Shown here one piece after another: positions 54,039 to 60,583 of a stretch of 64,000 bases of DNA (its first letter is position 1; each line of letters begins with the position of its first letter). The position numbers and the translations under genes are program-made. Origin of the DNA: Acetobacter musti (GTDB taxonomy: Bacteria; Pseudomonadota; Alphaproteobacteria; Acetobacterales; Acetobacteraceae). A model generated the notes under the pieces. The model saw only the letters and a list, made by a program, of their open reading frames with translations, was not told where the DNA came from and ran no database searches. Location: the NCBI RefSeq assembly GCF_011516835.1, contig NZ_WOTB01000006.1, positions 1-64,000 on the forward strand, read 5' to 3'.

Positions 54039-57293
<3,255 letters not shown>

Positions 57294-57301
57294 GGATCGT
57301 C

Positions 57302-58507
57302 TCAGTCCTCTGCGTCGGCCGGGTCGGAACCCATGGCTTTGATGCGATGAAGGTAGTTCTCAAAAAGCGGGACGGTAAAAGCAATGTCACCATGCGCCGG
57401 GCTGTAGATCATGCCCTTGCGGATCAGCGCATTGCGAAGCGGCGCCACCGCCTGCGTCCGCGAGCCCATCTGCGCGGCAATCGCCCCCGAACGATGCGCC
57501 CCCGGCCCAAGCTCGGACATCGCCTGACAGTACAGACGCTCACGCGGCGTCAGCCGCTCATAACGCATACGGAAAAATCCGGCATCCAGCGACGTCAGAG
57601 ACACCTCTGTCGCCACCTGAATGTCCCCCGCCAGAATGGTCTCCCCATGCGCCACATTCCACGCATGATAAGCCCATTCCTGCAGAAAATACGGATAGCC
57701 CTGCGTGATCCGCAGAACCTCGGCCACCGCTTCAGGCGTGAAATTCACCCCCTCACGCTCCGCCGGCGTCCGCAACGCGTCAGCGGACTCCTCCTCCGAA
57801 AGCGGCCCCAGTTCCGGAAAAGAAAAGAGCCGCTCGGAATAAGACCGCGACTGCCCCGTCAGCGCCACCACATGCGGCAGCCCCGCGCCCGCCAGCACCA
57901 CCGGCAATCCTTCGCGCATCACGCGATGCATCGCCATGATCAGCGCGCCCATATCCTTCTCGGAAAGATACTGGATCTCATCAATAAAGATCGCCACACC
58001 CGTCTTACGGGACTGCGCCGCATGACCCAGCGCCGACACCATGTCCGGAAGATCGCTTTCCAGATCGCCGCTATCCGCCGTACCCCTCTCGGGATCGACG
58101 TCCAGCTCGATCATCAGCCCCAGCGGGTGATGAATCCGCAGTCCCCCGGCAAAACTTTTCAGAACCCGCAACCCGCGCTTCACCTGCGCCGTCACCGCCC
58201 CGAGCCGGTCCAGCTCCAGCATCATCTTCCGGAACGGCGGCGCCAGAAGCTGCCCCAGCGACTTATCCTCATGCGCCTCGACAAAGCACGTCAGATAACC
58301 CGCGCTTTCCGCAAGCTGCTGAACCCGCCCCAGAACAACCGTTTTGCCCACCCCGCGAAGCCCGGTCGCAATAAAACTGCGCGCGCTCTTCCCGATCAGC
58401 GCCCGCTGCAGCACGACCCCCGCCTGGGTGAACAGCTCCTGCCGCCCCGCCAGCTCAGGCGGGGACGCCCCGGCCCCCGGCACATAAGGATTGCGAATAG
58501 GGTCCAT
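57302..58507 (-). CDS. AAA ATPase between carA and carB
   Basis: A 401-residue P-loop ATPase of the ORC/AAA16 kind. Walker A is [11 protein letters not shown] (around residue 52), Walker B is [11 protein letters not shown], and a winged-helix-like region lies at the C-terminus ([26 protein letters not shown]). Such proteins are often encoded in mobile or regulatory contexts, but the function here is unknown. It is squeezed between carA and carB with 9- and 8-base gaps, so it is part of that operon. It is not a known subunit of carbamoyl-phosphate synthase. Confidence 0.8.
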
Positions 58508-58516
58508 GAACCGAGA

Positions 58517-59962
58517 TCAGCCCGCCTTCACGCCCGAAGCCTGCCGCGCGTCGATCATCGCCACGAACCGCTCGAACAGATAGAAACTGTCCGAAGGACC
58601 CGGGCTCGCCTCAGGGTGATACTGCACCGAAAAAGCCGGCAGCGTGTTCGACGCAATCCCCTCGTTGGACCTGTCGAACAGGCTCACATGCGTCACCCGA
58701 ACCTCATTCGGCAGTGACCGTTCATCTACCGCGAACCCGTGATTCTGACTGGTAATCTCCACACGCCCCGTCGCCAGATCCTTCACCGGCTGGTTCGCCC
58801 CCCGATGCCCGCGCTCCAGTTTGTAGGTCTTGCCGCCCAGCGCCAGAGCCAGCAACTGATGCCCGAGACAGATCCCGAACACCGGCACACCCGCATCCAG
58901 CACACCCCGGATCGCCGGCACCGCATAAGCCGCCGTCGCCGCCGGATCGCCCGGCCCGTTGGAGAGGAAAACTCCCTCAGGCTTCAGCGCCAGAATTTCC
59001 TCCGCCGTGGTCGTCGCCGGAACCACCGTCACATCGCAGCCCGCCGTGGCCAGACAGCGCAGAATGTTCCGCTTCGCGCCATAATCGACCGCCACAACCT
59101 TTCGCAGCTTCGCCGGCAGCGGCTTCGTCGCCGAAGGCCACTCCCACACACCCTGCGACCAGCCATAGGGCTTCTCACAGGTCACGACCTTCGCCAGATC
59201 CATGCCCTCCAGCCCCGGCCAGGCCACCGCCGCCTTCTTCAGCGCCTCAATATCCAGCTTCCCGTCCACGACATGCGCCAGAACCGCCGTCTGCGGCCCT
59301 TTGTCACGGATACGAAGCGTCAGCGCCCGCGTGTCCACACCGCAGATCCCCGGAACCCCGCGCTCTTTCAGCCAGGCATCCAGACTCTCCGCCGACCGCC
59401 AGTTCGCAGGCTCCGTCAGATCCTGCTTCACCACCAGCCCCCGCGCCGAAACGCGCGCCGCTTCGTCGTCTTCCGCGTTCGTCCCCACATTCCCGATATG
59501 CGGAAAGGTGAAGGTGATAATCTGCCCGGCAAAAGACGGGTCCGTCAGCGTCTCCTGATATCCCGTCATCCCCGTCGAGAAGCAGATCTCCCCGATCGCC
59601 TCGCCGGTCGCCGGCGCGCCAAAACCCATGCCCCGGAACACCGTGCCGTCCGCCAGAACAAGCGCCGCCGTGGCGCCATCAGGGATTGCGCCGGACACTG
59701 CGCCGCTCTGCTCGGACATGATGGAATCCCGCTTCTGGTCATGTGATGAAAATTCAGAGGAAGAGGTCTCCGCGCCGGACGCCCCCGGCTGCAACGCCTC
59801 GATCGGAACACCCGCCGCTTTCGCCACAACCGGCCAGTGCTTCGGCGGAATCGCCCGCGCCTGCCGCCACTTGCGAACCGCCTCGGTGCCCACGCCCGTC
59901 AGCGACGCGATTTTTTCCGCACCGCCGATGCGCTCAATGATACTATCGACTGACAGAGACAT
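58517..59962 (-). CDS. carA: Carbamoyl-phosphate synthase small subunit with N-terminal HTH
   Basis: The glutaminase subunit that feeds ammonia to CarB. From the ATG at 59719 the protein is a standard CarA: ALVLADGTVFRGMGFGAP, GVDTRALT, and the class I amidotransferase triad with nucleophile Cys in FGICLGHQ and a QYHPEA His/Glu. Upstream in the same frame, starting at 59962 with AGGGGGAT ahead, is an 80-residue extension holding a Cro/YdaS-like helix-turn-helix (IIERIGGAEKIASLTGVGTEAVRKWRQARAIPPKHW) and a Ser-rich linker. I take 59962 as the start because the ribosome site is better there; translation from 59719 cannot be excluded. Confidence 0.88.
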   Translation of the reverse strand: MSLSVDSIIERIGGAEKIASLTGVGTEAVRKWRQARAIPPKHWPVVAKAAGVPIEALQPGASGAETSSSEFSSHDQKRDSIMSEQSGAVSGAIPDGATAALVLADGTVFRGMGFGAPATGEAIGEICFSTGMTGYQETLTDPSFAGQIITFTFPHIGNVGTNAEDDEAARVSARGLVVKQDLTEPANWRSAESLDAWLKERGVPGICGVDTRALTLRIRDKGPQTAVLAHVVDGKLDIEALKKAAVAWPGLEGMDLAKVVTCEKPYGWSQGVWEWPSATKPLPAKLRKVVAVDYGAKRNILRCLATAGCDVTVVPATTTAEEILALKPEGVFLSNGPGDPAATAAYAVPAIRGVLDAGVPVFGICLGHQLLALALGGKTYKLERGHRGANQPVKDLATGRVEITSQNHGFAVDERSLPNEVRVTHVSLFDRSNEGIASNTLPAFSVQYHPEASPGPSDSFYLFERFVAMIDARQASGVKAG

Positions 59963-60010
59963 TCCGAATATCCCCCTGATTGCTGACCTCCATATCAGTC
60001 CCAATCGTCC

Positions 60011-60055
60011 GTGGGAAGAAAATTCCCACCATGTGACAGGTGAGGGAAGTGGGAA
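60011..60055. promoter_or_regulatory. Repeated GTGGGAA motif in carA upstream region
   Basis: GTGGGAA-N5-TTCCCAC is a perfect 7-bp inverted repeat at 60011-60029, and a third GTGGGAA lies at 60049-60055. They sit between carA and the divergent YqeY-type gene, 49 bases ahead of the preferred carA start, where an autoregulatory site would be expected. Confidence 0.5.
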
Positions 60056-60112
60056 AAACTTTCTCCCGCCATCCCGCGTCACCCGTCACTCTGTTACCGA
60101 CCGGAGACCATC

Positions 60113-60583
60113 ATGACCGAGCCCACCTCCCTCCGCGCCCGTATCGCCGACGATACGAAAACCGCCATGAAAGCCGGACAGAAAGACCGCGTCAGCGCAC
60201 TCCGCATGATCGGCGCGAAAATCAAGGACGCCGACATCGCCGCCCGCACCACCGGCAAGGAACTCAGCGAGGACGACCTGATCGGCACGCTCCGCAGCAT
60301 GGTCAAATCCCGCACCGACTCCCTGAAAATGTATCTCGAAGGCGGCCGCGAGGACCTCGCCGAAAAAGAGCAGGCCGAAATTACCCTGATCCAGGAATAC
60401 CTGCCTGCCGAAATGGATGACGCCGCCCTCGAAGCCGCCGTCAAGGCCGCCATCACCGAGACCGGCGCCGCCACCATGAAAGACATGGGCAAAGTCATGG
60501 GCGCCCTGAAAGCAAAATTCGGCGCCTCACTCGACCTCGGACGCGCCAATGGTCTGGTCAAAACTACCCTGAACGCAGGCTGA
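60113..60583 (+). CDS. GatB/YqeY domain protein
   Basis: A 156-residue YqeY-like helical protein related to the tail of GatB amidotransferase subunits, possibly binding tRNA. The opening LRARIADDTKTAMKAGQKDRVSALRMI, the EYLPAEMDDAALEAAVKAAI region and the end AKFGASLDLGRANGLVKTTL match the family. The start follows GGAGACCATC. The function remains unclear in most bacteria. Confidence 0.92.
   Translation: MTEPTSLRARIADDTKTAMKAGQKDRVSALRMIGAKIKDADIAARTTGKELSEDDLIGTLRSMVKSRTDSLKMYLEGGREDLAEKEQAEITLIQEYLPAEMDDAALEAAVKAAITETGAATMKDMGKVMGALKAKFGASLDLGRANGLVKTTLNAG

Follow-up and report, generated by a model that had tools for sequence, protein, structure and literature searches.

The locus was analysed within a 64-kb window, by which the whole stretch of DNA under study is meant. 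The minus strand of this window carries carA (58517 to 59962), a gene for an AAA-type ATPase (57302 to 58507) and, downstream of both, a gene (54039 to 57293) that we take from its translation to be carB. The divergent neighbour of carA, on the plus strand at 60113 to 60583, is yqeY (PF09424). The carA product has 481 amino acids before the stop codon and starts with the ATG at 59962, which is preceded by the ribosome site AGGGGG (59972 to 59977, minus strand). From this start codon the reading frame runs without interruption through a helix-turn-helix (HTH) domain of about 57 residues, a linker of about 40 residues and a complete CarA. The original prediction of an HTH extension that is in frame with CarA and has its own ribosome site was therefore correct. 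The CarA part scored 459 bits against the TIGR01368 profile (cut-off, 307 bits), and C365, H449, and E451, corresponding to the Cys-His-Glu triad of Escherichia coli CarA, were all in place and invariant among 47 sequences. With a score over the cut-off and an intact triad, the protein qualifies by its sequence as the glutamine-hydrolysing small subunit of CPSase.

The HTH domain (residues 1 to 57; 59792 to 59962, minus strand) matched NF046037, the carph-isopro domain, with 62.7 bits (59-63 bits) against a curated cut-off of 38 bits; since an NCBIfam model of the domain exists, the extension has already been noticed by annotators. Structure models were calculated from 69 and 46 relatives, hand-picked from 101 listed. 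The AlphaFold2 model of the HTH had a mean pLDDT of 84 and comprised helices at residues 5-12, 15-22, 26-35, and 40-50, and residues 60 to 90 of the linker (59693 to 59785, minus strand), with a pLDDT under 50, were predicted to be disordered. The top fold matches of the model were Cro proteins (3bd1 and 6on0; TM score of 0.74 to 3bd1), with a best Foldseek E-value of 0.016 and no match under 0.001. When the HTH profile was compared with the PDB, 3bd1 was matched with an E-value of 2.5e-4, 2hin/6on0 with 9.5e-4, and 1rzs, the Cro protein of phage P22, with 0.032. The domain stayed below the Pfam gathering cut-offs of P22_Cro (PF14549; 22.5 against 30.2) and YdaS_toxin (PF15943; 26.4 against 30), and its kinship to these families appears to be a resemblance in fold and profile only. 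The Cro proteins of N15, the Xfaso 1 prophage, and P22 are thus alike in fold and profile to the HTH of CarA, but they are free phage or prophage proteins, whereas the present domain is joined to a housekeeping enzyme. The predicted recognition helix is TEAVRKWRQA (residues 26 to 35; 59858 to 59887, minus strand), in which A28, K31, and W32 were conserved in all of the 151 fused sequences described below, R30 in 150, and R33 in 147; residue 34 was Gln in 141. The mean column identity over an HTH alignment of 70 sequences was 59%. Two small stand-alone YdaS-like HTH relatives, both above the Pfam YdaS cut-off, are also encoded in the window's genome (L002 and L003), and a 364-residue open reading frame of another genome (L193, genome G035) joins a Cro-like HTH to a different C-terminal part.

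Of 391 genomes belonging to the window's family, 383 had an NF046037 domain scoring above the cut-off. The family is taken to be Acetobacteraceae, the NCBI lineage of the relative Gluconacetobacter dulcium, but in the broader sense of the genome collection; vinegar producers and cellulose producers are among its members. A previous sample of 150 family genomes had the domain in frame with CarA in 144; in the remaining six the gene was frameshifted (G078), cut by a contig edge (G032), without the domain on CarA (G027 and G102), or not judged (G017 and G024). A single CarA match per genome was obtained in 120 of 120 genomes searched. Named relatives carrying the fusion include Gluconacetobacter, Asaia, and Acidocella (L046), the last of which NCBI assigns to a different family of this order, Acidocellaceae. 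The fused set used below consisted of 151 genes, namely the 144 and seven named records. In the compared region L043 (Novacetimonas cocois) equals L152 (G067) and L047 equals L236, leaving 149 distinct loci; a duplicate of the window's locus (L122), a frameshifted locus (L170), and one at a contig edge (L174) were kept outside the set. Four members with short CarA frames (L030, L112, L215, and L218) were excluded from the tree, which had 147 rows.

Upstream of carA, the putative proximal operator is an exact 19-bp palindrome without mismatch, GTGGGAA-N5-TTCCCAC, at 60011 to 60029 (GTGGGAAGAAAATTCCCAC), just as had been described at the outset. A further GTGGGAA had been noted there as a third copy of the half-site; it is present at 60049 but does not stand alone, being the better half of a degenerate palindrome at 60049 to 60067, the putative distal operator, which has two mismatches to the 19-mer and scored 14.3 bits, the second-best value at the locus. 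The centres of the two palindromes are 38 bp apart. GTGGGAA was not enriched in the 64-kb window (5 found, 7.7 expected), and TGGGAA-N5-TTCCCA occurred exactly once in the 4.7-Mb genome, against two occurrences of a reversed control pattern. The rarity of the palindrome in its own genome is no argument by itself, and the case from the single sequence is weak.

The comparison with relatives gave a different result. An exact GGAA-N5-TTCC was present within 200 bp upstream of 146 of the 151 fused genes. Dinucleotide shuffles contained it in 37 of 7550 cases, and among CarA genes without the domain it was upstream of only 1 of 73. The palindrome is consequently more than a chance occurrence because of its place and its conservation in relatives. 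Together with the spread of the domain, these counts bear out the conservation of extension and site across Acetobacteraceae that had been set beforehand as a refutation test of the original prediction. With a scoring matrix, which was trained on the very loci it scored, all 151 loci had at least one site over 8 bits and 133 had a second, which left 18 of 151 with no second site above that value; one locus had a third. For the 149 distinct loci the numbers were 149, 132, and 1. Beyond the upstream regions, 14 matches occurred in 631 kb of the same loci. Of 139 loci, 111 had their operators 37-41 bp apart and 13 had them 48-50 bp apart; the larger spacing would fit one added helical turn, which is suggestive only.

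CarA without the HTH was encountered in three genomes of two genera, G027 and G102 of one genus and G534 of the window's genus (1.7 Mb). In these three, none of the four best-scoring places per locus lay within about 420-450 bp upstream of carA; a place of 7.9 bits was located about 680 bp upstream in G027 and one of 8.3 bits about 960 bp upstream in G102. As nearly all other genomes have both, the simplest reading would be that HTH and sites were lost together, twice. Seven genomes were uninformative on this point: carA begins at a contig end in G024 and G609, the match in G736 starts from residue 134 only, and G017, G648, G652, and G764 had no CarA match at E 1e-40. In 60 genomes searched for exact sites, 55 were counted in 40 genomes, the other 20 having no exact copy of the full palindrome; by coordinate comparison 50 of the 55 were at carA and 5 elsewhere, and the reversed control pattern occurred 8 times. 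A wider regulon was rejected, as the own genome has a single exact site; places with up to two mismatches to it numbered 121 there, against 60 for the reversed pattern. The distribution of exact sites supports a single-target enzyme that would repress itself.

The palindromes could instead belong to a separate regulator or to yqeY, with the HTH serving otherwise, for example in DNA tethering or protein contact. The genome does encode other HTH proteins, such as the small relatives L002 and L003, and yqeY is divergent from carA in 136 of 151 loci. However, the site was kept in all 15 loci in which no yqeY was detected (585-1600 bp searched), and among the three loci without HTH the sites were gone from G027 and G102 although yqeY remained (no yqeY was detected in G534). 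Since they are kept without yqeY and absent without the HTH, the sites travel with the HTH and not with yqeY, which was rejected as their owner; the concentration of exact sites at carA speaks against a separate regulator as well, and we regard an explanation of this kind as improbable.

The base at position -1 of the half-site was compared with residue 34 of the predicted recognition helix. C-type half-sites (CGGAA) accompanied 7 of 9 rows substituted at this residue but 3 of 138 Gln rows, or 8 of 9 and 9 of 138 with a looser threshold. The association was strong by Fisher's test over the 147 tree rows (1.6e-8), but it comprised only 4-5 changes on the tree and a pair test was not significant. 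Residues 7 and 3, outside the recognition helix, scored slightly above residue 34 in the same comparison, and L218, too short for the tree, is substituted at residue 34 yet has mostly G-type sites. The apparent covariation of helix and operator is taken as support only.

The position of the sites relative to the start codon defined two classes. Class I comprised 66 loci in which the core of the proximal palindrome begins 27 bp before the ATG. In 60 of the 66, TTG occupied -35 to -33; the palindrome, 17 bp long, extended from -29 to -13, and a -10-like hexamer at -12 to -7 was followed by the ATG. The hexamer had A at -11 in 66 of 66 and T at -12 and -10 with frequencies of 0.61 and 0.67, but it is loose, with TAT in 21 of 66 only. 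In class I the palindrome thus takes up the whole 17-bp spacer between promoter-like elements immediately ahead of the ATG. With the operator in the spacer and the -10 element just before the ATG, the class I mRNA is predicted to start at or near the ATG. A ribosome-site-like sequence was missing in 91 of 97 loci with a site this close to the ATG, against 12 of 54 others, although the independent pairs relating a leaderless class to the missing ribosome site were too few for a test. Class II comprised 49 loci with a longer leader, the window among them. Here the right half-site TTCCCA was followed 17 bp on by TA (T 0.80, A 0.78), and from this pattern the operator would cover the proposed -35 element. 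In the window the proposed elements are TTCCCA at 60012 to 60017, within the proximal operator, and TATGGA at 59989 to 59994, both on the minus strand; a consensus promoter scan of the region upstream of carA found no promoter there.

This geometry bears on two further explanations. The palindrome could be an RNA hairpin acting as an attenuator or terminator of carA: inverted repeats can form hairpins, and on the carA strand there is one terminator-like match overlapping the region. The class I palindrome, however, lies between the proposed -35 and -10 elements and would be outside the carA transcript, and what is conserved are two equal sites of 17 bp; a terminator or attenuator was rejected by this position and is scarcely credible. 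Alternatively, HTH-CarA on the palindromes might activate or tune the promoter in the way of MerR, without blocking it. MerR-type activators also bind in the spacer between -35 and -10, where the class I site is situated, and the distal site is on the upstream side of the promoter. On the other hand, the class I spacer is already 17 bp, the usual optimum, so that a distortion would be unnecessary, the class II site covers the proposed -35 element, and the fold of the HTH is Cro-like. Activation of this type is accordingly considered unlikely, and repression is preferred.

An internal ATG (Met82; 59717 to 59719, minus strand) with a weak ribosome site lies in the linker of the window's carA and is a possible start of a short CarA. 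An in-frame linker ATG from codon 57 on was found in 104 of 151 loci, and a ribosome-site match of at least 4 bases at the right place in 82 of these 104, against 39.7 in synonymous shuffles (sd 4.2, largest 52 of 300). The matches peaked 6-11 bases before the internal ATG. In 39 of 151 loci the linker had no start codon, or a weak GTG or TTG only, and 14 of 151 had no start codon of any kind from codon 51 on; on the tree the linker ATG was gained or lost about 24 times. In many species one gene probably gives rise to both a long repressor-enzyme and a short enzyme without the HTH, as the matches before the internal ATG suggest. Where the internal start is missing, the long form is probably the working enzyme because 120 of 120 genomes hold a single CarA match. 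An internal start had been considered earlier with the HTH as a second product; the ATG with a ribosome site recurs in many relatives, but what it would add is a short CarA and not a separate HTH, and the site in the window itself is weak. One may also ask whether the extension is a relic or an annotation error, with translation at the internal ATG yielding the short CarA as the sole product. The 82 loci, of 151, in which an in-frame linker ATG is preceded by a ribosome site would agree with this. The identity of the HTH columns, the 39 loci without a proper linker start, and the inferred class I promoter, which would set the mRNA start at the ATG of the HTH, all speak against it, and such a relic is very improbable.

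We propose that CarA of this family is very likely both an enzyme and a repressor, whose HTH would occupy two palindromes overlapping the carA promoter and block carA, by which the enzyme would set its own level; conservation of the fusion and its sites points to the enzyme-regulator fusion repressing its own operon that had originally been suspected. The HTH would bind each palindrome as a dimer, and HTH-CarA occupying both, about 38 bp apart, would block RNA polymerase. The use of a tetramer is possible. The signal might be, as a guess, how much CarA is free of CarB or of substrate, and in many species the internal start would probably add a short CarA lacking the HTH. This proposal is backed by comparison of genomes, in which the fusion, the pairing of the putative sites, the place where they lie, their near restriction to carA, and the joint absence agree. 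A more extended scheme, plausible but tentative, would have one self-controlled promoter serve two proteins. These would be a long CarA, repressor and enzyme, leaderless in most species examined, and a short CarA translated from an internal ribosome site that is conserved. The former would sense either an excess of CarA or the state of the synthase, and would repress through the tandem operators, perhaps gripped by the enzyme tetramer, in place of the separate regulators of E. coli.

The operon context was also compared. For 111 relatives the sequence downstream of the fused carA extended over at least 1.5 kb; carB was present there in 104, whereas the ATPase gene stood between the two in only 8. 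A role of the embedded ATPase, which the original prediction had included, was dropped, and the ATPase was rejected as a partner of HTH-CarA for want of conservation. A search of 21 genomes, namely the window's and 20 relatives, with 13 of the 21 from the window's genus, found the arginine repressor ArgR (PF01316) in none. Therefore, an arginine repressor of carAB of the E. coli type is probably not available in these genomes, and the group may control arginine in another way.

Carbamoyl phosphate supplies arginine and pyrimidine synthesis, and in E. coli its synthesis is controlled by many separate regulators; ArgR, PepA, PyrH, PurR, RutR, and IHF act at carAB, with the enzymes PepA and PyrH sharing in the repression and PepA as a trigger enzyme (PMC6245113). 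The operon is the same, but in E. coli the regulators are separate proteins, whereas here CarA itself bears the predicted DNA-binding domain. Regarding the features of trigger enzymes, catalytic and predicted DNA-binding domains are joined in one polypeptide, and specific DNA sites at the controlled gene are indicated through conservation and joint absence. Known enzymes of this type include BirA and NadR, whose HTH is N-terminal, and PutA of E. coli, whose DNA-binding domain is a ribbon-helix-helix in contrast to the Cro-type HTH of CarA. PutA is also a different enzyme, switched by proline and membrane binding, and HTH-CarA probably has in addition a short form in many species. PutA is described as a trigger enzyme, a proline dehydrogenase acting as repressor at its own promoter region, and in a genome screen it bound a single spacer; HTH-CarA would resemble it as an enzyme with a DNA-binding domain repressing its own promoter region, here proposed from sequence (PMC8249747). 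BirA and NadR, likewise metabolic enzymes that regulate transcription, differ in enzyme and pathway and are called multi-target regulators there on unpublished data (PMC8249747). Among the literature matches listed, judged by titles and the beginnings of abstracts, none dealt with the function, operator or internal start of the HTH-CarA fusion. It appears that a whole bacterial family has moved the regulator onto the enzyme. A dedicated operator is associated with it, the geometry of the promoter is clear, and genomes without both parts serve as natural controls, so that the family offers a test case for the origin and state sensing of enzyme-repressor fusions.

When the fusion was looked for across the class, 81 of 387 genomes had domain matches (6 of these 81 belong to the family), and 26 of 30 non-family loci fetched could be parsed, none of which was a CarA. 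In many other Alphaproteobacteria the NF046037 domain heads other long proteins (loci among L259-L288, e.g., L271:1486-2808). Two such non-CarA proteins were searched against Pfam, and one had a match to Mitofilin (Mic60) of 45.6 bits, an odd combination of a Cro-like HTH with a Mic60-like protein.
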